NCBI GenBank assembly: GCA_902799985.1
Contig: CADCCR010000010.1
Coordinates: 1-53,512 of the forward strand
Length of the DNA stretch: 53,512 bases
Source: an uncultured Bacteroidales bacterium
GTDB taxonomy: Bacteria; Bacteroidota; Bacteroidia; Bacteroidales; Bacteroidaceae
Reading direction: 5' to 3'
Shown here: piece after piece, positions 35,149 to 46,881 of the stretch
Numbering within the stretch: the first letter of the stretch is position 1
Layout of the letters: every line of letters starts with the position of its first letter
Notes under the pieces: model-generated
What the model was told of the DNA's origin: nothing
Database searches by the model: none
Seen by the model: the letters and a program-made list of their open reading frames with translations, nothing else
Position numbers and translations under genes: made by a program

Positions 35149-36456
35149 ATGATTTGGAATCCAAATAAAGAATGCATGAGTCGCGACGAAATGAGCGCAC
35201 TCCAAGGCAAAAGACTTCATAAGATAGTAGAGTACGTCTATCATAATGTCCCATTCTATCGCAACAAATTGCAGGAGATGGACATCCGTCCCGACGATAT
35301 TCAGACCATCGAGGACATCAGAAAACTTCCTTTTACAACTAAGAAGGACCTGCGCGACAACTATCCCTTCGGACTGCAGGCTGCTCCGCAAAGTGAAATC
35401 ATCCGCGTGCACGCATCCAGCGGTACGACAGGCAATCCCACCATCGTGGGCTATACCCGCAAGGATATTGGCGTCTGGAGCGAATGTATGGCGCGTTGCC
35501 TGACAGCTTATGGTGTGACGCGCGACGATATCTTCTCCGTTTCTTATGGCTACGGTCTCTTTACCGGTGGTTTGGGAGCTCACTATGGTGTAGAGCACAT
35601 CGGCGCATCCGTCATTCCTGCAGGTACAGGCAACACAGAGAAACACCTGAAACTCATCCGCGACCTCGGCATCACAGGCATTGCCTGCACACCTTCCTAT
35701 GCCCTCTATCTAGCCGAAACGATGGACAAGCTCGGCATTCGAAAGGAAGACATCAAACTGCGTGTCGGAGCCTTTGGCGCAGAACCTTGGACCGAAAACA
35801 TGCGCGATGAGATACAAGAACGGCTTGGACTGAAGGGCTACAACCTCTACGGACTTTCCGAGATAATGGGACCAAGCGTCAGCTATGAATGTCAGATGCA
35901 ACATGGTTCACACGTCTGCGAGGACCACTTCTATCCAGAAATCATCAACCCCGTCACGCTTGAACCATTGCCTGCCGGACAGACAGGCGAACTGGTGTTC
36001 ACCACGTTGACGAAGGAAGGTATGCCTGTGCTTCGCTATCGTACACGCGACCTTTGCTCGCTCTTGCCGGGCACTTGCGACTGCGGACGTACAGCCGTAC
36101 GCATGAGTCGTATCGAAGGACGTTCCGATGATATGCTCATCATCCGCGGCATCAATGTCTTCCCCTCGCAGGTGGAGAGCGTTGTGCTCTCTATGCCCGA
36201 GTTCGCTCCGCGCTACATGCTCATCGTGGACCGCGTCAACAACCTCGACACCTTGCAGGTACAGGTCGAGCTCCGACAGGAATTCTTCACTGGTGTCTTC
36301 GACACGCCAGCTGCCGTCGACCAATTGGAGAAGAGACTTGCCTCCAAGCTCAAGAGCGTGCTCAGCATCGCTGCCAAGGTTCAGCTCAAGGCACCCAATA
36401 CCATCGAGCGCAGCCAAGGCAAGAGTGCCCACGTGATAGACAAACGCAAACTATGA
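35149..36456 (+). CDS. paaK: phenylacetate-CoA ligase, first copy
   Basis: Activates an aryl-acetic or related carboxylic acid to its CoA thioester via an acyl-AMP. AMP-binding motif SSGTTGNPTIVGYT at about residue 85, NLYGLSEIMGPSVSYEC, a Cys-containing cluster (LLPGTCDCGRT) and RIEGRSDDMLIIRGINVFPSQVE near the C-terminal domain hinge. 435 aa is standard. In gut Bacteroidales these enzymes occur with indolepyruvate ferredoxin oxidoreductase, which is not adjacent here. The second copy follows after 42 bases. Confidence 0.92.
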   Translation: MIWNPNKECMSRDEMSALQGKRLHKIVEYVYHNVPFYRNKLQEMDIRPDDIQTIEDIRKLPFTTKKDLRDNYPFGLQAAPQSEIIRVHASSGTTGNPTIVGYTRKDIGVWSECMARCLTAYGVTRDDIFSVSYGYGLFTGGLGAHYGVEHIGASVIPAGTGNTEKHLKLIRDLGITGIACTPSYALYLAETMDKLGIRKEDIKLRVGAFGAEPWTENMRDEIQERLGLKGYNLYGLSEIMGPSVSYECQMQHGSHVCEDHFYPEIINPVTLEPLPAGQTGELVFTTLTKEGMPVLRYRTRDLCSLLPGTCDCGRTAVRMSRIEGRSDDMLIIRGINVFPSQVESVVLSMPEFAPRYMLIVDRVNNLDTLQVQVELRQEFFTGVFDTPAAVDQLEKRLASKLKSVLSIAAKVQLKAPNTIERSQGKSAHVIDKRKL

Positions 36457-36498
36457 TAACTAATAACTATTAAATAAATAATGTTAGGAGAGAAGATT

Positions 36499-37812
36499 AT
36501 GAATGACAAGACAAGATATTTCAATCCTTTCAATGAGACACTTTCTCGCGAAGGGATAGAAAAACTTCAGTTAGAACGCCTCAAGCAGACGATACAGCAA
36601 TGTATGAAGAATGAGTTCTACCGCCAGAAGTTTGCTGAAGCAGGTATCACGCCCGACGATATTCGTTCGCTCTCCGATGTCCGCAAACTGCCCTTCACAA
36701 CAAAGCAAGACTTGCGCGACACCTATCCCTTCGGTATGGCTTGTGTGCCTCTGCGCCAATGCGTTCGACTGCATTCGTCGAGCGGCACAACGGGCAATCC
36801 GACAGTCATCCTGCACACCAAGAAAGACCTCGATGAGTGGGCCAATCAAGTGGCCCGTAACCTGTGGATGGTCGGCTTGCGCCCCGATGATGTGTTCCAG
36901 AATTCATCGGGCTACGGCATGTTCACGGGCGGCTTGGGCTTCCAGTATGGTGCCGAACGCCTGGGCATGCTCACTGTGCCTGCCGCTGCCGGCAACTCGT
37001 TGCGACAGATCAAGTTCATCAAGGACTTTGGCACAACGGCTATCCATGCTGTACCGTCCTACGTGACGCGCCTCTACGAAGTGATGAAAGAAGAAGGTGT
37101 CGACCCACGTCGCGATACGAAGCTGAAGGTGCTGGCCATCGGTGCAGAGCCTCACAGCGAAGAGCAACGGCAGCGCATCGAGGAGATGATGGGCGTGAAG
37201 GCTTACAACTCGTTTGGCATGAGCGAAATGTGCGGACCGGGTGTAGGTTTTGAATGTCCCGAACAGAATGGTCTTCATTTCTGGGAGGACTATTACATCG
37301 TTGAGATAGTTAATCCCGAGACACTCGAACCAGTGCCCGATGGCGAGGTGGGCGAATTGGTACTTACCACACTTTGCCGCGAAGCAATGCCTTTGCTGCG
37401 TTACCGCACTCGCGACCTCACCCGCGTACTGGGTCGTACATGTCCCTGCGGACGCAACCACATACGTCTGGACCGCATGCGCGGACGTTCGGACGACATG
37501 ATGGTGCTGCGTGGCGTGAACATCTTCCCCATACAGATAGAGAAGATACTGATGCAGTTCCCTGAGCTGGCCAGCAACTACCTCATCACCCTCACGACCG
37601 ACGAGAACAACGACAACATGACCGTCGAAGTGGAACTGGCACAGCCCACCGACGACTTTGCTCAGCTTCAGTCCTTGGAGCGTGAGATACGCCGTCGGCT
37701 GAAGGATGAGATACTGCTTACGCCATACGTGAAACTCGTTGCCAAAGGCACGCTCCCTGTTAGCGAAGGAAAGGCAGTACGCGTTGTCGACAAGAGAAAG
37801 GTATATCAGTAG
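36499..37812 (+). CDS. paaK: phenylacetate-CoA ligase, second copy
   Basis: Paralogue of the preceding ligase with the same motifs: SSGTTGNPTVILHT, FGMSEMCGPGVGFECPEQNG, CPCGRNHIRLDRMRGRSDDM and LRGVNIFPIQIE. An ATG at 36481 is also in frame, but AGGAGA precedes the ATG at 36499 at good spacing, so the latter is preferred (437 aa). Sequence differs enough from copy one to suggest another substrate. It is followed by an ACT-domain gene. Confidence 0.92.
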   Translation: MNDKTRYFNPFNETLSREGIEKLQLERLKQTIQQCMKNEFYRQKFAEAGITPDDIRSLSDVRKLPFTTKQDLRDTYPFGMACVPLRQCVRLHSSSGTTGNPTVILHTKKDLDEWANQVARNLWMVGLRPDDVFQNSSGYGMFTGGLGFQYGAERLGMLTVPAAAGNSLRQIKFIKDFGTTAIHAVPSYVTRLYEVMKEEGVDPRRDTKLKVLAIGAEPHSEEQRQRIEEMMGVKAYNSFGMSEMCGPGVGFECPEQNGLHFWEDYYIVEIVNPETLEPVPDGEVGELVLTTLCREAMPLLRYRTRDLTRVLGRTCPCGRNHIRLDRMRGRSDDMMVLRGVNIFPIQIEKILMQFPELASNYLITLTTDENNDNMTVEVELAQPTDDFAQLQSLEREIRRRLKDEILLTPYVKLVAKGTLPVSEGKAVRVVDKRKVYQ

Positions 37813-37902
37813 TAATCAGTCTGTTTAGCATATCTCTCTGAATCGACACTCAAATTGCGGAGCACAAGTTAAAACAAAGTATAATCTTTAATTCAAACAA
37901 TA

Positions 37903-38331
37903 ATGACAATCCATCAATTATCCATTTTCATCGAGAACCGTTCGGGTACACTTATCAAGGTTCTCAACGCCCTGAAGGAGGCAAACATCCAAATCATTGC
38001 TTCCACTATTGCCGATACAGCCGAGTACGGCATCTACCGCCTCATCTGCAGCAGCCCGATGCGAGCCTGCGAGGAACTGAAGGCAGCGAATGTGGCTGTT
38101 GCTCTGAGCGACGTCTTCGCCATCGAGATAGACGACAAGCCAGGTCGAGCTGCAGATGCTGTGAAGTCATTCAGCGAGGCAGGCATCAGCATTACATATA
38201 TGTATAGTTTCCTGCTGCGCGGCAAGGGCATTCTCATCTTCCGCACAGACAACAACGAACTTGCCAAGCAGGTTATTGCCAGGGACGGCCTCAAGAGTGT
38301 CAGCGAGGAAGACTTGGCTGCATTGGCATAG
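37903..38331 (+). CDS. ACT-domain amino-acid-binding protein
   Basis: 142 aa formed by two ACT domains: IHQLSIFIENRSGTLIKVLN (1-70) and FAIEIDDKPGRAADAVKSFS (72-142). Such stand-alone proteins sense amino acids or similar ligands. They commonly lie next to paaK genes and may regulate the ligase. No DNA-binding part. A gap of 85 bases separates it from the 5-alpha-reductase-like gene. Confidence 0.9.
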   Translation: MTIHQLSIFIENRSGTLIKVLNALKEANIQIIASTIADTAEYGIYRLICSSPMRACEELKAANVAVALSDVFAIEIDDKPGRAADAVKSFSEAGISITYMYSFLLRGKGILIFRTDNNELAKQVIARDGLKSVSEEDLAALA

Positions 38332-38416
38332 AACAATCCAACTCATCAGCGCTACTGTGTCCTTCTCCTGCTTCTTCGAGGCATTGAGGGGCGCGTAGCG
38401 CTCAGTTTGTTTACTA

Positions 38417-39205
38417 ATGACAGCAGAAATCTTCTCTTCGCTCACCTATGGCATGATGGCAATGGCCTTTGTGGTCTTTGTCAGCCTTTATTTCGTTACG
38501 GCAGGTTATGGACAGTTCCGCAGCCAAAGCTGGGGCTGGAGCATCAACAACAAGATTGCTTGGATGCTGATGGAAGCACCTGTCTTCATCGTCATGCTTC
38601 TCATATGGTTGTATTCTGACCGCAGCTCTGGCGGATTCGTCCAGAAGTGGGACTTACCTCAGCTCGTGCTGTTTTGCCTCTTCGAGCTGCATTACTTCCA
38701 GCGCAGTTTCATCTTTCCTTGTCTCATTACGGGTAAGAGCCGCATGCCGATAGCCATTATGCTGATGGGCATCACGTTCAACGTCATCAACGGTCTGTTG
38801 CAAGGCGGCGGTCTCTATTGGTTCCCCAATCCCGACTTCCAGGAGGGAGCCTCCTATCTTCTTCGCTGGAATGCTATCGTGGGCATCGCACTCTTCCTGG
38901 TGGGAATGGCTATCAATTGGCATTCTGACCACGTGATTCGTCACCTTCGTCAGCCGGGCGACACACGTCACTATCTGCCGCAGAAGGGTATGTATCGCTA
39001 CGTGACTTCGGCCAACTACTTCGGCGAGATACTGGAGTGGACGGGATTTGCCATTGCAGCAGCCACTCCTGTTGCCTGGGTCTTTCCCCTCTGGACGGCA
39101 GCCAACCTTGTGCCTCGGGCTCATGCCATCTACAACCGCTACCGCGAAGAGTTCGGCAAGGAAGCTTTGGCGGGGCGCAAACGCGTCATACCATTCGTTT
39201 ATTGA
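38417..39205 (+). CDS. 3-oxo-5-alpha-steroid 4-dehydrogenase-like membrane reductase (5AR)
   Basis: Polytopic inner-membrane protein, 262 aa with about six spans, of the steroid 5-alpha-reductase (SRD5A) family: WGWSINNKIAWMLMEAPVF, LFELHYFQRSFIFPCLI, FNVINGLLQGGGLYW, and the C-terminal NYFGEILEWTGFAIAA with KRVIPFVY at the end. The family reduces the delta-4 double bond of 3-oxo steroids to the 5-alpha form using NADPH. The following genes code an OYE-type reductase and an SDR, the same set reported in gut Bacteroidales that make isoallolithocholate. Substrate here (bile acid, steroid or a lipid) is inference. Confidence 0.85.
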   Translation: MTAEIFSSLTYGMMAMAFVVFVSLYFVTAGYGQFRSQSWGWSINNKIAWMLMEAPVFIVMLLIWLYSDRSSGGFVQKWDLPQLVLFCLFELHYFQRSFIFPCLITGKSRMPIAIMLMGITFNVINGLLQGGGLYWFPNPDFQEGASYLLRWNAIVGIALFLVGMAINWHSDHVIRHLRQPGDTRHYLPQKGMYRYVTSANYFGEILEWTGFAIAAATPVAWVFPLWTAANLVPRAHAIYNRYREEFGKEALAGRKRVIPFVY

Positions 39206-39284
39206 TGAATTAATGAATGGAGGAGAGAAGATAAGAGAATAACAGTTAAGCAATACCGATATACAGGATTAGGAAGGAAAGATT

Positions 39285-40538
39285 ATGGAGAACAAGATAT
39301 TCGAGGAAGCTCACATTGGGCCATTGACGTTGCGGAACCGCACTATTCGGAGCGCTGCCTTCGAAAGCATGTGCCCTGGGCACGAACCAAGCCAGATGCT
39401 CTACGACTACCATACGAGCGTGGCGCGGGGTGGGGTAGGAATGACCACGATTGCATACGCCGCTGTGACGGAGAGCGGACTGAGCTTCGACCGCCAGCTG
39501 GTGATGAAGCCAGAGATACTCCCTGGCTTGCGTCGACTCACCGACGGTATCCATCGCGAAGGTGCGGCTGCTGGCATCCAGTTGGGACATTGCGGCAACA
39601 TGAGCCACAAGGAAATCTGCGGATGTATTCCCGTAGGAGCTTGCAGCGGCTTCAACCTCTACAGCCCTACGATTGTACGTGGACTTCGACGCGACGAGTT
39701 GCCCGCTTTGGCGAAGAAGTTTGGCCAAGCCGTCAACCTGGCACGCGAAGCAGGCTTCGATGAGGTGGAGATACATTGCGGTCACGGTTACCTGATAGAC
39801 CAGTTCCTGAATCCCTACTTCAACCATCGCCACGATGAGTACGGAGGCTCGCTGGATAACAGGATGCGCTTCATGACGATGTGCATAGAGGAAGTCATGA
39901 AGGCAGCCCGTGACGATATGGCTGTCGTGTGCAAGATGAACATGCGCGACGGGCTCAAGCACGGCATCACGCCCGAGGAACAGAGCATCCCTGTGGCTCG
40001 CAGACTGCAGGAGCTTGGCGTTCATGCCCTTGTGCTGAGCGGTGGACTGGTCAGCGCCACTCCGATGTATGTGATGCGCGGCGAACTGCCCTTGCAAACG
40101 ATGACGCACTACATGGACAAGCCTTGGCTTAAGTACGGCATCCGCTCGTGCAAACACCTTGTACGTGGCATCATGACGAAGACTGTTCCCTACGAAGAGG
40201 CATTCTTCTTGAACGACGCACTTAAGTTCCGTCAGGCATTGCCCGACATGACGCTCATCTACGTGGGCGGACTGGTCTGCGGCGACAAGATAAACGAAGT
40301 GCTGAACTACGGCTTCGAGGCTGTGCAAATGGCTCGCAGCCTGCTCAACGAGCCGGACTTCGTGAACCGCCTCCGCGAAGACCCGCACCATCGTTGCGGA
40401 TGTCGCCACAGCAACTACTGCATCGGCCGCATGTATACGCTTGAGATGGCTTGCCACCAGCACCTGCAGGAGAAACTTCCTAAAGACATTATAAATGAAA
40501 TAGAAAGGATTGAACGTGAACAGAACATCTCTCTCTGA
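39285..40538 (+). CDS. Old-Yellow-Enzyme family reductase (5-beta-reductase-like, BaiCD/BaiH-type core)
   Basis: FMN-dependent ene-reductase consisting of the TIM-barrel domain: PLTLRNRTIRSAAFESMCPG (residues 11-30), GIQLGHCGNMSHKEICG, EVEIHCGHGYLIDQFLNPYF with the usual HxAHGYL-type site (the second Ala is Cys), YGGSLDNRMRF, and a Cys-rich tail CGCRHSNYCIGRMYT. 417 aa lacks the second NADH domain of BaiCD. In Parabacteroides-type clusters the equivalent gene is a 3-oxo-delta-4 5-beta-reductase; that role here is inferred from company. Overlaps the start of the SDR gene. Confidence 0.85.
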   Translation: MENKIFEEAHIGPLTLRNRTIRSAAFESMCPGHEPSQMLYDYHTSVARGGVGMTTIAYAAVTESGLSFDRQLVMKPEILPGLRRLTDGIHREGAAAGIQLGHCGNMSHKEICGCIPVGACSGFNLYSPTIVRGLRRDELPALAKKFGQAVNLAREAGFDEVEIHCGHGYLIDQFLNPYFNHRHDEYGGSLDNRMRFMTMCIEEVMKAARDDMAVVCKMNMRDGLKHGITPEEQSIPVARRLQELGVHALVLSGGLVSATPMYVMRGELPLQTMTHYMDKPWLKYGIRSCKHLVRGIMTKTVPYEEAFFLNDALKFRQALPDMTLIYVGGLVCGDKINEVLNYGFEAVQMARSLLNEPDFVNRLREDPHHRCGCRHSNYCIGRMYTLEMACHQHLQEKLPKDIINEIERIEREQNISL

Positions 40539-41436
40539 ACCGATTCGCGAGGAGGCTTCTCCCTCCACGTTCTCTCCATCTCGCGGAAGCAAGAAGGGAG
40601 TTGCTATCATTACCGGTGCAGGAACAGGCATGGGCCTGGAAGAAGCGAAGGCAGTAGCGGCCAAAGGTTACCGCACCATCATGGCTTGCCATCACCCAGA
40701 CAATATGGAAGAGAAGCGACAGGAGATTATCCGCGAGACTGGTAATCCTGACGTTGAAGTAATGGGCATCGAGCTGGCCAACCTAAGCGATGTGCGTCGA
40801 TTTGCCGACACGATAAAGGCGAGCACAGACCGCCTCGACCTGCTGATGAATAATGCAGGCACCCTGCAGACAAGTTTCCACCGCACGACCGACGGCTTGG
40901 AACAAACGGTCAGCGTCAACTACGTAGGGCCTTATCTGCTCACGCGCCTGCTACTACCCCTGATGGGCGAGGGCAGTCGCATCGTCAACATGTCGTCGCT
41001 CACCTACAGGATGGGGCACCTCGACTTTCCCGATTTCTTCGTACGCGGACGAAAAGGACGCTTCTTCCGCATTCCCATCTACTGCAATACTAAGCTGGCT
41101 ATCACGTTGTTCACCTTCCATCTGGCTGCACTTCTAAAGGACCGCGGCATCACGGTCAATGCTTCCGACCCAGGGATAGTGTCGACGAACATCATCCGCA
41201 TGCACATGTTCTTCGACCCGCTCACCGACCTTTTCTTCCGTCCCCTTATCCGCACCCCGCGACAGGGAGCAGATACGGCAATCCATCTGCTTCTCGATGA
41301 GGACAAAGCCAAGCAGACCGGTACGTTCAACCGCTCGAACCATATTGTCGACGTTGGCAACAAGTTCTACAAACACCCTCAGATGCAGGAGTTGTGGGAC
41401 AGGACAGAAGCCATCGTAGCAAAGTACCTTGATTAA
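40516..41436 (+). CDS. SDR, candidate 3-hydroxysteroid dehydrogenase
   Basis: Short-chain dehydrogenase: TGAGTGMG cofactor motif, MNNAGTLQ, Ser in NMSSLTYR and YCNTK (Tyr and Lys). It is of the retinol-dehydrogenase/protochlorophyllide-reductase-like subgroup. The start overlaps the OYE gene; GTG at 40516 has AAAGGA at good spacing, TTG at 40510 is the alternative. Residues about 7-25 (EEASPSTFSPSRGSKK) precede the Rossmann start and look repeat-derived. With the two upstream reductases this could act as a 3-beta-hydroxysteroid dehydrogenase, but the alpha/beta choice and substrate are not visible. Confidence 0.82.
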   Translation: MNRTSLSEPIREEASPSTFSPSRGSKKGVAIITGAGTGMGLEEAKAVAAKGYRTIMACHHPDNMEEKRQEIIRETGNPDVEVMGIELANLSDVRRFADTIKASTDRLDLLMNNAGTLQTSFHRTTDGLEQTVSVNYVGPYLLTRLLLPLMGEGSRIVNMSSLTYRMGHLDFPDFFVRGRKGRFFRIPIYCNTKLAITLFTFHLAALLKDRGITVNASDPGIVSTNIIRMHMFFDPLTDLFFRPLIRTPRQGADTAIHLLLDEDKAKQTGTFNRSNHIVDVGNKFYKHPQMQELWDRTEAIVAKYLD

Positions 41437-41457
41437 GGTACCTCACTTCGCTTCCCC

Positions 41458-41720
41458 AATAAGCGCTAGGCGCTTCCAAAATAAGCACGGGGCGCTTCCG
41501 TAATAAGCGCTAGGCGCTTCCAAAATAAGCACGGGGCGCTTCTGAGATAAGCACGGGGCGCTTCCAAAATAAGCACGAGGCGCTTCCGAACTAAGAACGT
41601 GTCGTTTCCGAACTAACCACGCGTCGTTGGCTAACTAACCACGTGTCGTTGGCTAACTAAGCACGTGTCGTTGGCGAACTAACCACGTGTCGTTGGCGAA
41701 CTAACCACGTGTCGCTGGCG
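41458..41720. repeat. 22-bp hairpin repeat array, locus C (12 units)
   Basis: Twelve units, each 22 bp, from 41458. Units 1 and 3 have the perfect hairpin AAGCGC-TAG-GCGCTT; units 2, 4 and 5 read AAGCACGGGGCGCTT. From unit 7 the sequence changes to AACCACGTGTCGTTGG, where CCACG and CGTTGG still pair in part. The array lies between the convergent SDR and HAD genes, ending 11 bases from the HAD stop. Confidence 0.95.
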
Positions 41721-43021: not shown

Positions 43022-45736
43022 TTATTCTGTTGCATGTTTACGCTCCGTTGCCGTCGGCTCATGGCCAACCGCAAGCAGGAGCTGACCTTCTCGCACGGTT
43101 ATGGCATAGTTGCCATCGATGACGCCTTCGATGATGATATCTCCGATGTTGCCATTGATGTTCTTCACGTTGCCAAGCACGTAAGTACCACTCCCAACAA
43201 GACCTTTGCTGCTGCGAATCTCCATCACTGGTGCATCGTATTTCGGTCCATGCTCCCATGTCTTCTTCTCAACATTTAGCGTCCTGACATCCAATTTGTC
43301 AACGTTTTGTCCGTCGATGTCGAAGACAACACGCGCTCCGATGCCCAGCGAGAGACTGTCCACACGAATGCTGCCTACTGCACCTTCGCCGCCAATCTGA
43401 AGCGTGGCATTGTACTCCATTCGGAGGCTTTTCTCAAATGTGCCGCCGCTGACAAGTGTCGTGTGACGATTCATCCAAACGTCGGAACCTTTCATGATGC
43501 CATCGAACTGCAACGTGCCGCCCCACACATCCGTCTTGCCCGTATAAGGCTCTATGACAGAAGGCAGGATGAGTGTGCCTTCGCCTTGCTTCACCAGACG
43601 CATCTCTCCCATGAAAGCACCGCCCGTGAGCGTGTGCGTGTATCTTATGGTCCTGATGTCTGTGTTGCAGCCCGTTCCTTGTGTCCACGAAGGGGTGTTG
43701 ATCGTCAGGATGTGTGGCGAAGAACCTTCTTCGACGGTGAATGATGCATCCTTCTGTTCGTCGATGAGGAGATGGTCGCCGTTGCCGATGGACATTCCGT
43801 CGCGTACGATGGTACGGCCTCTTGTAGGCAGAGGCGGTGGTGCAACGGTGATGCCCTCTAGTTGTCCCAGGAAGTAGCTGACATGTGGCGGTTGGTTGTA
43901 GCCGCACATCTGCCAGCACATGGCATTGCGGTAGTCATGGTCCAGCCAAAGCGAATAGTTACGCCATTGGGTTGGCTCGGTCGTGGTGTAAATGCGGAGC
44001 TTGTGGTCGCTGGTGCGCAAGATGAGTTCCTCGCGCCAATCGCCGAAGATGTCGCCCTGGAAGTTCGGCGAACCTTTCGTGGAATTGCACGTCCAAACAT
44101 CGTTGCCAAAGGCCCAATAACCGTTGCTCCAATCCGAACCGAGCTTCACGACATGAGGATTGAAGCCGTGGTCGTAGCCATCGACACTCATCCTGTTGTA
44201 GTTGAACGTCTCTTCCAGCAAGTCGCCATCCCAATAGATTCGGAAGTTTGGCATGATTGTGCCATCGGAAGCCATTGCTTTCTGTCCGCTGACCGACGAG
44301 ATATATCCGCCAGTACGGGACGATGACATGAGGCAACCTGGATAAGCGTTCGAGAAGTTGCCAGCCATGCAGCGACCGTCGTCCCTGTCCGACGAGCATG
44401 TGAAATAGACTTCGGCTGTTGTGGCATTGCGGAGCATCGAGCCAGGACTGTCCTCGTGGCAGGTAAAGGTCTCCTCTCCCCAACGGAAGGGGTCGAGGTC
44501 GGAAGTGTGCTGCGCATCACCATGTCCGCGGCCGGTAGTGCTTAGGCCCATGCCGTTGTCGTCGATGACCATGGAGCCATAGACAATTTCGTCGCGCCCA
44601 TCCATGTCCACATCGTTGATGCTGAAGTTGTGGAAGCCCTGTCCGAACCACGGGCTGCCACTCTTCTCCTCCTTCCAGTACCAGCGTTGCGTCAGCTTGT
44701 GAGTCGCTGGGTCAACGTCGAAGGCTTTCATATAGATGTGTGTATAAATGCCTCTGCAGATGAGGACACTCGGATGGCGGCCGTCCAAATAAGGTGCACC
44801 AAAGAAATGTTTGTTGGCACGATGGCCGTAATTGTCGCCCCAGGAGTTGTTTGTGGTCTTTTTGACGAGCCCTTGCAATGTGCGTGGCAGGGGGTAGCTC
44901 ATCTTCTGATAGATTTTCCCTGTAGCTCCTTCCATATATAGCAGGTACTCTGTGCCTTGTGTCTCGTAGGAGGTGTTTGGTCCATGCGACACAATGGAAC
45001 CTCTGTAGTTTGCCGTAGCAGAACCTATCACCGTCTCCTTGCCGTCTGCTGAATGAATGGTAAGACCGTCGTTGGCGCGCATCAGGACTTCGGCCTTTCC
45101 GTCCTCGTCCCAGTCGAAGGCAATGGCATTGCTCTCCATTTGGTTCGGACTGAACATATTGGGACCAACGTCAATCCACCAGAGCAACGTGCCGTCCTGC
45201 TTGATGATGTCTATTCTGGTGAAGTCTATTTGCCTGACATCCCAAACGCTTGCCTGATCCTTGACGTTGATGCGCCGCACGATAAGTTCCATTTCTCCGT
45301 CGCCGTCAAGGTCTGCCACGCTGATGTCGTTGGGCTGATACTGCGCTGTAATGTCTGCTCCATCCTTTCCGATGACAGTCGGCAAAGCCACTTCCTTGTA
45401 ATTGTGGTTCCATGCGCCAACAGCCTCGCAGTCCTCGCCCTCAACGCCTCGAACCACAGGGCGAACCGTATATGTATCGTTCAAGGTGCCGCTCTCGTCG
45501 CTGTAGTTTGACACGTCGAGTGGTTCAGCATTCAGCAACATGCCGTCACGATAGACATTGTACGCCACATCATAATATTCCTCGGCAGTAATGCGCCAGC
45601 TGAGGAAAATGCCGTTCGGATTCTTCACGGCTACAAGACCGCGGCCAAGTGCGTCCGTTTGCCTTTGTGCAGAAACAGAAAGCGGACCGGCAACCACAGC
45701 AGAAGCAACTCCCAGAATACATAAGAGGCGTTTCAT
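43022..45736 (-). CDS. rhamnogalacturonan lyase (PL11) with C-terminal extension
   Basis: Secreted pectin enzyme cleaving the rhamnogalacturonan-I backbone by beta-elimination. Start taken at ATG 45736 (MKRLLCILGVASAVVAGPLS signal peptide); ATG at 45745 overlaps thiH. PL11 features: GRGLVAVKNPNGIFLSWRI, calcium-binding blade motifs (ADLDGDGEMELI, FDWDEDGKAEVL, DVDMDGRDEIVYG), and HGFNPHVVKLGSDWSN. The domain ends about residue 610. About 290 residues follow with beta-helix-like repeats, autotransporter/passenger style, ending without the KxxK-type T9SS signal that I can recognise. 904 aa is longer than typical PL11 (about 600). Confidence 0.9.
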   Translation of the reverse strand: MKRLLCILGVASAVVAGPLSVSAQRQTDALGRGLVAVKNPNGIFLSWRITAEEYYDVAYNVYRDGMLLNAEPLDVSNYSDESGTLNDTYTVRPVVRGVEGEDCEAVGAWNHNYKEVALPTVIGKDGADITAQYQPNDISVADLDGDGEMELIVRRINVKDQASVWDVRQIDFTRIDIIKQDGTLLWWIDVGPNMFSPNQMESNAIAFDWDEDGKAEVLMRANDGLTIHSADGKETVIGSATANYRGSIVSHGPNTSYETQGTEYLLYMEGATGKIYQKMSYPLPRTLQGLVKKTTNNSWGDNYGHRANKHFFGAPYLDGRHPSVLICRGIYTHIYMKAFDVDPATHKLTQRWYWKEEKSGSPWFGQGFHNFSINDVDMDGRDEIVYGSMVIDDNGMGLSTTGRGHGDAQHTSDLDPFRWGEETFTCHEDSPGSMLRNATTAEVYFTCSSDRDDGRCMAGNFSNAYPGCLMSSSRTGGYISSVSGQKAMASDGTIMPNFRIYWDGDLLEETFNYNRMSVDGYDHGFNPHVVKLGSDWSNGYWAFGNDVWTCNSTKGSPNFQGDIFGDWREELILRTSDHKLRIYTTTEPTQWRNYSLWLDHDYRNAMCWQMCGYNQPPHVSYFLGQLEGITVAPPPLPTRGRTIVRDGMSIGNGDHLLIDEQKDASFTVEEGSSPHILTINTPSWTQGTGCNTDIRTIRYTHTLTGGAFMGEMRLVKQGEGTLILPSVIEPYTGKTDVWGGTLQFDGIMKGSDVWMNRHTTLVSGGTFEKSLRMEYNATLQIGGEGAVGSIRVDSLSLGIGARVVFDIDGQNVDKLDVRTLNVEKKTWEHGPKYDAPVMEIRSSKGLVGSGTYVLGNVKNINGNIGDIIIEGVIDGNYAITVREGQLLLAVGHEPTATERKHATE

Positions 45737-45741
45737 GTTAC

Positions 45742-46881
45742 TCATCTCCCTGGTTTCTCATTTACGTAGTCGAACGCGGCATCCCAGTCTTTCCAGACGG
45801 GTTCGCGACCGAGTTGTTTGAGGCGTTGCTCAATCTCCTTTGCCGTCCTTTCGTCGGAAACCGTGAACTGCTCCAAGGCTTGCGGGTAGGTGTGGTAGCC
45901 TCCAGGGTTGACCTTCGACTCAGCCGACATCGTCGTTACGCCCAGCGTACACATGTTGTCGCGTATGTACGCAGGCTCGCGTGTCGAATAAGAGATGTCA
46001 ACATCGTGGTCGAAGATGCGCATGGCAAAGGTGGCTTGTGCCAGCTCGCGGTCGGTCATGATGCAGTTCGGCTGGAAGCCCTCGTTCTGTGCAGGCCGCA
46101 TGCGTGGGAAGTTGATGCTGTACTTAGTACGCCAATAGTGCTTCTGCAGGTAGCGCAGATGGTATGCCATCATCGTGACGTCTGTCCGCCATTCCTTCTC
46201 CAGTCCTATGAGCACACCCATGCCGATGGAGTGCACACCGGCCTGCCCCATACGGTCGAAGCCATCGCAACGCCACTCGAAGCGCGACTTCATGCCTCGC
46301 GGATGATAGAGTTTGTAGTTATCGTTGTGGTAAGTCTCCTGGAAACAGATGACGCCATTCAGCCCATGCCTTGTCAGCTCCTTGTACTCTTCTGCCAGAA
46401 GGGGCATCACCTCAATCTTGATGTTCGAGAAGTAACGCTTTGCTATGTCGATGGCTTCTGCCAGATAGGGTACGCCAGCCTTGGCAGGGTGCTCGCCTGT
46501 GACGAGAAGGATGTTCTCGAACGGAGCAAGTTTCTTTATAGCTTTGTACTCGTTCTCTATCTGTTCAGGGGTGAGGATGGTGCGTGCCATTGGGTTCTCC
46601 CTGTGGAAACCGCAATAGACGCACGAGTTCGTGCAGGCATTGGTGATGTAGAGAGGGATGAACATCGACATGGTGCGGCCGAAGCGTTCCTCTGTATAGT
46701 GACGTGAGAGTCGTGCCATCGTCTCGAGGTACGGCTCAGCAGCAGGGGAGAGCAAGGCCATGAAGTCGCTGACGTTCAGATGGCTCTTCGCAAGGGCACG
46801 GCGCACATCCGTATCAGTCATCCGGGCAATGCGTTCCGTCGTCTCTTCCCAGCTTATGTTTTTTAGTTCGTCTGAAAACAT
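45742..46881 (-). CDS. thiH: 2-iminoacetate synthase
   Basis: Radical-SAM enzyme that splits tyrosine into dehydroglycine and p-cresol, supplying the thiazole of thiamine in anaerobes. Radical-SAM cluster site CTNSCVYCGF is visible at residue about 87; HPRGMKSRFEWRC and MRPAQNEGFQPN are family blocks. 379 aa is normal. Preceded by thiF (2 bases) and followed by PL11 with ATGA overlap. Confidence 0.95.
   Translation of the reverse strand: MFSDELKNISWEETTERIARMTDTDVRRALAKSHLNVSDFMALLSPAAEPYLETMARLSRHYTEERFGRTMSMFIPLYITNACTNSCVYCGFHRENPMARTILTPEQIENEYKAIKKLAPFENILLVTGEHPAKAGVPYLAEAIDIAKRYFSNIKIEVMPLLAEEYKELTRHGLNGVICFQETYHNDNYKLYHPRGMKSRFEWRCDGFDRMGQAGVHSIGMGVLIGLEKEWRTDVTMMAYHLRYLQKHYWRTKYSINFPRMRPAQNEGFQPNCIMTDRELAQATFAMRIFDHDVDISYSTREPAYIRDNMCTLGVTTMSAESKVNPGGYHTYPQALEQFTVSDERTAKEIEQRLKQLGREPVWKDWDAAFDYVNEKPGR

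Follow-up and report, generated by a model that had tools for sequence, protein, structure and literature searches.

Three consecutive genes of an uncultured Bacteroidales bacterium (family Bacteroidaceae in GTDB) probably act together on ring A of 3-oxo-delta-4 steroids, as a remodelling module orthologous to a cluster of 5-alpha-reductase, flavin oxidoreductase and 3-beta-hydroxysteroid dehydrogenase (3-beta-HSDH) genes in gut Bacteroidales. The stretch analysed, 'the window', spans the 53,512 nucleotides of contig CADCCR010000010.1, contig 10 of the 215-contig, 3.05 Mb and 79% complete assembly GCA_902799985.1. Its forward strand carries at 38417-41436, in this order, open reading frames (ORFs) for a membrane 3-oxo-steroid 5-alpha-reductase of the SRD5A family (5AR), an old yellow enzyme (OYE) and a short-chain dehydrogenase/reductase (SDR) (Table 1). 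An earlier note on this DNA had named the same three families in the same order, as matches to PF02544, PF00724 and PF00106 on one strand now confirm; the 5AR is the only PF02544 match in the genome. The note had also likened the trio to the genes with which gut Bacteroidales make isoallolithocholic acid (isoalloLCA), and the trio does match the cluster described in passages of a review (PMC10382948). Overall, we regard its interpretation as partly supported, a bile-acid substrate and an isoallolithocholate product being the presumptive parts.

Conservation of the three-gene cluster

A contig scan for the OYE returned 75 loci, and the rows compared below number 76, namely the window, 74 loci and a Phocaeicola massiliensis record (L089); L088, which holds no full OYE, was excluded from the counts. 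Relatives hold the conserved cluster on which the earlier interpretation depended: in 63 of the 76 rows, including some labelled Phocaeicola or Parabacteroides, 5AR, OYE and SDR lie within 4 kb of each other on the same strand and in the same order. The remaining 13 rows comprise three without a nearby SDR and ten without a nearby 5AR (six of these with an SDR, four with neither), and missing neighbours are partly due to contig ends (e.g. L038, L058, L076). The OYE occurs without an adjoining 5AR in L041, L053, L058, L060, L063, L065 and L066, five of which have an SDR. The copies nearest to those of the window are in L014 (roe deer rumen; 5AR 89% and OYE 96% identical) and L016 (site unstated).

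The first two genes also keep company at the level of whole genomes. Among 139 genomes of the genus, drafts of lower completeness, the 5AR was found in 67 and the OYE in 70, such that 63 carry both, four the 5AR only, seven the OYE only and 65 neither. The two genes are linked within 2.5 kb in 56 of the 63 two-gene genomes; in the other seven (G020, G083, G089, G100, G107, G126, G130) the 5AR sits on another contig, so the trio has been split there with both parts kept. Across 247 genomes drawn from the order, an OYE orthologue scoring above 550 bits is present in 33, and all 33 carry a 5AR-family gene (E 0.001 or better) versus 64 of the 247 overall, with the 5AR within 2.5 kb of the OYE in 26. 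In only two genomes of the order does a 5AR with 43% identity or more accompany an OYE under the 550-bit line, which omits G427, where the gene is split over two contigs, and G281, where it is a fragment (5AR 50-53%). A 5AR match occurs in 22 of 151 genomes drawn from the family, five of them weak (E above 1e-7). The trio genes appear, from sequence comparison, to be under purifying selection: the ratio of nonsynonymous to synonymous substitution rates (dN/dS) could be calculated for 30 gene pairs (33 tried, three saturated) and is below 0.15 in 28 of them; dS is high in many pairs, and the ratio in the hindgut pair L047/L048 is 0.35 for the 5AR and 0.22 for the SDR.

The order 5AR-OYE-SDR is common to the window and to loci labelled Phocaeicola, where we take Bacteroides dorei now to be placed, or Parabacteroides (L071, L089, L074, L075), at identities of 51-60% for the 5AR and 64-71% for the OYE. 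According to passages of the review (PMC10382948, after Sato et al. 2021), the 5AR of Parabacteroides merdae shares a cluster with two genes, one for a predicted 3-beta-HSDH and one for an NADH:flavin oxidoreductase whose hypothesised role is that of a 5-beta-reductase (5BR). Disruption of the 5AR prevented formation of allolithocholic acid derivatives, and isoalloLCA was made from 3-oxo-delta-4-lithocholic acid by strains of P. merdae, Odoribacter laneus and B. dorei. Since the same three families are clustered here, the window trio is a further member of this published 5AR/5BR/3-beta-HSDH kind, unlike which, however, it belongs to a genus with many foregut-titled relatives and mostly without genes of the bile-salt-hydrolase family PF02275. 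Passages of a survey of chicken isolates (PMC6069880) report a 5AR gene in its Bacteroidetes, except for two Odoribacter isolates and P. distasonis, so the P. distasonis label of L074 may be off.

The three enzymes and their proposed reactions

The 5AR matches PF02544 (Steroid_dh) with E 1e-36 (126.5 bits, cut-off 22.6) and aligns by sequence over nearly its full length with the bacterial SRD5A of PDB entry 7c83 (PbSRD5A, E 3e-44) and with human SRD5A2 (7bw1, E 3e-31). A ubiquinone or lipid reductase, the best match that would have counted against the earlier interpretation, was considered and rejected, as the top models and structures are steroid 5-alpha-reductases. In SRD5A2, Glu57 and Tyr91 polarise the steroid 3-ketone, as passages of PMC7815742 and PMC7591894 describe, and their equivalents Glu53 and Tyr93 are invariant in all 66 5AR copies; seven of the eight NADPH-contact positions given in passages of PMC7815742, mapped via our own alignment, are likewise kept. 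Departures from known SRD5As include Ile where SRD5A2 has His231 and Met for Gln in the Q-E-Y motif (see below). Trees, which were made by a quick method and with long branches flagged, include a diverged 5AR branch of eight rows (the hindgut-titled L046, L047, L048, L051, L052, L056 and L087, plus L062) with His for the NADPH-contact Asn167 and Tyr for Gln95, whose OYEs are still 81-84% identical to that of the window; in this branch one member of the trio may have changed in place or been replaced.

The OYE matches PF00724 (Oxidored_FMN) with E 1e-46 (160.1 bits). Its best NCBIfam model, BaiCD (NF041087), scores 168.5 bits, well below the cut-off of 825, and the match covers only positions 2-258 of the 642 in the profile; the half that binds flavin adenine dinucleotide (FAD) and NADH is thus absent, as the earlier note had recognised for the NADH domain. 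An AlphaFold2 model from a 39-row alignment (mean predicted local distance difference test score 88) has the OYE barrel, with short OYEs closest; the best folds in the PDB are OYEs of ~340-350 residues, while 1ps9 ranks 18th and 2tmd 45th. The class III OYEs YqjM, GkOYE and TsER are the top structural and sequence matches and share the HxxHGY site, but they are only ~25% identical, have 337-348 residues instead of 417, and differ in the C-terminal Cys loop. In short OYEs the His pair holds the ketone and the Tyr is the acid; here His164, His167 and Tyr169, together with Gln99, Lys217, Arg265 and Arg351, are present in 76 of 76 copies. The Cys in place of Ala within the HxxH site, to which the earlier note had drawn attention, is residue 165 and recurs widely (60 of 76 copies in all, with Ala in the other 16).

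With the long OYEs BaiCD and the hormone 5-beta-reductase ci2350, the enzyme shares the barrel, the position of the catalytic Tyr and a Cys loop after the barrel, but it differs in the missing FAD/NADH half and the short-OYE HxxH pair. The loop residues C373, C379 and C390 occur in all 76 copies and C371 in 62, and in a profile comparison (probability 99.7) they overlay the Cys loop of FadH, which binds a 4Fe-4S cluster. Given the spacing x1-x5-x10, unlike that of FadH, and a first Cys in only 62 of the 76 copies, an iron-sulfur (Fe-S) cluster in this loop is a guess. Passages of PMC12238238 part bile-acid 5-beta-reductases (Tyr/Ser and Glu) from hormone 5-beta-reductases (Asn and Ser) at two positions; mapped through FadH, these positions hold Gly168 and Gln173 in each of the 76 copies, a pair that matches neither signature.

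The SDR matches PF00106 (adh_short) with E 1e-30 (106.7 bits), and its classical motifs TGxxxGxG, NNAG, Ser and YxxxK are intact: T33, G34, G40, A114, G115, S161, Y189 and K193 are each found in 69 of 69 copies and the NNAG asparagines in at least 97%. The overlap with the OYE gene claimed in the earlier note holds for either of the two starts in Table 1, but it depends on a non-ATG start, and in the nearest relative (L014) an SDR ATG lies past the OYE stop.

From these families and residues we infer the following reactions and their stereochemistry. By analogy with human SRD5A2, the 5AR would deliver a hydride from NADPH to the alpha face of C5 as Glu53 and Tyr93 polarise the 3-ketone. The OYE, by analogy with short OYEs, would pass a hydride between flavin mononucleotide and C5, while His164 and His167 hold the 3-ketone and Tyr169 serves as acid; in the reverse direction it would supply the 5AR with 5-beta-3-oxo steroids, and the pair would thereby flip the A/B ring junction. 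The SDR would then convert the 3-ketone to an alcohol. Because the OYE lacks the FAD/NADH domain yet has a Cys loop at the position of the FadH Fe-S loop, its electrons may come directly from NAD(P)H, as in short OYEs, or from an outside carrier via the loop.

Several points weigh against one steroid module shared with the published cluster. In three of the 63 complete rows (L077, L080, L081) the SDR is of another type, 35-37% identical and ~0.8 kb further on, and at the distant loci L082-L084 no SDR was found near the OYE. The co-occurrence tests, among them the Fisher test in the genus (p 3e-26), ignore kinship. Seven of the 33 OYE carriers in the order have only an unlinked 5AR, which in four of the seven is just 36-39% identical to that of the window, and loci from metagenome-assembled genomes or assemblies labelled Parabacteroides and Phocaeicola stand in for the assayed P. 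merdae sequences. Lastly, the position of Gln56 in the Q-E-Y signature is Met52 in all 66 5AR copies, and passages of PMC7815742 report that human SRD5A2 mutants with Ala or Leu for Gln56 lose activity; as the Parabacteroides-labelled copies also have Met, the change is typical of the whole cluster type seen here. As a separate observation, L077 (7747-9356 of a Lachnospiraceae-titled contig, a label that may be a binning error) has the 5AR and OYE followed by two different SDR genes, one of which lies between the OYE and the SDR counted for this row.

Candidate substrates

Habitat is taken from record titles, which give the sampled site and no proof of residence. The 75 titles point to the rumen, omasum or reticulum in 17 cases and to the cecum, colon, rectum or feces in ten; 13 loci bear RUG names, which we take to be rumen genomes, and 35 are unstated. 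Within the window's 60-row OYE branch, 17 foregut and nine hindgut sites are stated. A clean split by habitat was considered and rejected, as hindgut-titled copies do cluster (four changes on the 5AR tree and five on the OYE tree; 0 of 500 shuffles as low), but foregut-titled copies fail to do so (215 of 500 shuffles as low for the 5AR, 374 of 500 for the OYE). The family PF02275 is wider than bile salt hydrolases, so only matches with E below 1e-30 were counted, and kinship is ignored in the tests that follow. Outside the genus, such a gene is present in 18 of the 32 genomes of the order that carry the OYE orthologue and in 18 of the 214 that do not (odds ratio 14, p 1.6e-9). Within the genus it is found in three of the 63 two-gene genomes, a lower share than the 18 of 32 (p 3e-8), and in two of the 76 others, and none was found in the 79% complete assembly of the window's genome. 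The cluster thus accompanies bile handling in the order at large, but not in this genus. A bile-acid substrate is therefore not taken for granted, both for want of this association and because 17 of the 27 loci with a stated gut site are from the foregut, before the bile duct.

That free 3-oxo bile acids are nonetheless the main natural substrate in this lineage, and are converted to 3-oxo-allo and isoallo forms such as isoalloLCA, is a reading to which we give serious but tentative weight. It is favoured by orthology with the published cluster and by the association with PF02275 outside the genus, and passages of PMC11193847, a study with bile-acid addition, report bile acids, including allocholic acid, quantified in rumen fluid and serum; the near absence of PF02275 from the genus and the 17 foregut titles argue against it. 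In passages of bile-acid gene surveys of the rumen and of cow intestine (PMC11193847, which mentions 82 enzyme types in all, and PMC9750977), 15 types are named and none is a 5AR, so clusters of this kind may have been passed over.

A second possibility, which we consider rather unlikely, is that in the forestomach the OYE, 5AR and SDR reduce dietary sapogenins (diosgenin and related compounds) or phytosterols that have been oxidised to 3-oxo-delta-4 forms, with smilagenone, smilagenin, epismilagenin and tigogenin as the 5-beta and 5-alpha products. In grazing ruminants, conjugated epismilagenin obstructs the flow of bile and thereby leads to photosensitisation. The rumen saturates and epimerises diosgenin to epismilagenin (passages of PMC5535167 and PMC10385484; related, PMC8955086), and in the sheep digestive tract saponins give rise to epismilagenin, smilagenone, smilagenin and tigogenin, with epimerisation continuing in caecum and colon (passages of PMC5535167 and PMC10385484). 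Such conversions of the aglycones would need 5-beta and 5-alpha reduction as well as 3-oxo reduction. This known chemistry, the foregut titles, purifying selection in foregut-titled pairs and the uncoupling of PF02275 from the cluster in the genus are all consistent with plant steroids as substrates. In contrast, the link of the trio genes to sapogenins is indirect, hindgut-titled members of the window's OYE branch keep the trio, human-gut relatives meet no grass saponins, and the bile acids quantified in rumen fluid (PMC11193847, above) offer another substrate. Among the matches listed for open-licence literature, considered at the level of listings, there was neither a link of the 5AR cluster to the rumen nor a named rumen sapogenin reductase. 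It is doubtful, though conceivable, that the trio has been co-opted in this lineage for plant steroids and is all or part of the rumen machinery that saturates and epimerises sapogenin ring A (diosgenin to smilagenin, epismilagenin and tigogenin).

It is improbable that the trio merely resembles a steroid module and reduces other enones or lipids (plant phenolics, terpenoid enones, the cell's own lipids), since, although the 5AR has Met for the conserved Gln, the OYE fits neither steroid signature, and OYEs and SDRs are promiscuous families, the Glu and Tyr for the steroid ketone are in every 5AR copy and 5AR and OYE share a genome even when unlinked. The published counterpart, moreover, acts on bile acids (passages of PMC10382948).

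Flanking DNA and the setting of the proposed module

Table 1. Positions of the trio and of its key residues in the window (aa, amino acids)
Feature	Position	Strand	Evidence
5AR, SRD5A-family membrane 3-oxo-steroid 5-alpha-reductase	38417..39205	+	ORF; PF02544; PDB 7c83/7bw1 by sequence; 262 aa
5AR Met52-Glu53, place of human SRD5A2 Gln56-Glu57	38570..38575	+	Alignment; Met and Glu in 66/66 copies
5AR Tyr93, equivalent of SRD5A2 Tyr91	38693..38695	+	Alignment; 66/66 copies
Short OYE, candidate 3-oxo-delta-4-steroid 5-beta-reductase/dehydrogenase	39285..40538	+	ORF; PF00724; AlphaFold2 model; 417 aa
OYE active site H164-C-G-H167-G-Y169	39774..39791	+	Conservation across 76 copies
OYE C-terminal Cys loop C371-x-C373-x5-C379-x10-C390, candidate Fe-S site	40395..40454	+	Conservation; overlays FadH Cys loop
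SDR, candidate 3-beta-HSDH	40510 (TTG) or 40516 (GTG)..41436	+	ORF; PF00106; motif residues
SDR catalytic YxxxK (YCNTK)	41080..41094	+	Sequence; conservation in 69 copies

Directly upstream of the 5AR lie two PaaK-like phenylacetate-CoA ligases and a pair of ACT-domain genes (35149-38403), with a weak terminator-like hairpin at 38389-38403 between them and the 5AR (the scan found five such hairpins, with a shuffle mean of 3.2). These genes and an SSF symporter were considered as parts of the module and rejected, as L014 is the one locus of the 75 that has the full set upstream on the same strand, although flanking sequence is in some loci too short for a judgement; L004, a short piece of a 16188-base contig that appears to be the same as that of L014, has the set without the symporter. 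In L067 these genes sit on the far side of the SDR in inverted orientation. Flanks vary, and within 7 kb no fourth gene, antisense ORFs aside, recurs in more than 12 loci, a count that is low because the script keeps the longest overlapping ORF (the OYE itself in only 65 loci). A long antisense ORF covers the OYE gene (39246-40664, minus strand); 31 such ORFs recur in 22 loci, and we read them as a shadow of codon composition.

Just after the SDR, two abutting tandem arrays of 22-bp units occupy 41449-41720. The genome holds 186 copies of the unit CGCTTCCNAAATAAGCNC, distributed over both strands (reversed control, 0); among the first 100 listed, the spacing between copies is often 22 or 44 bp. 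A second unit type has 58 genome matches at up to two mismatches; the units are a dispersed repeat family. Further on, 43022-45745 (minus strand) encodes a family 11 rhamnogalacturonan lyase of 907 amino acids, with a weak match to the passenger-associated-transport-repeat, between thiamine monophosphate synthase-like and radical-SAM/BATS genes.

The gene set itself is already published; it is the setting that is new, a large genus with many foregut-titled relatives in which the module appears to be under purifying selection and PF02275 is mostly absent. This raises the question of whether forestomach bacteria may apply a bile-acid module to plant steroids, and whether such enzymes may be behind the long-known reduction of saponin aglycones in the rumen.

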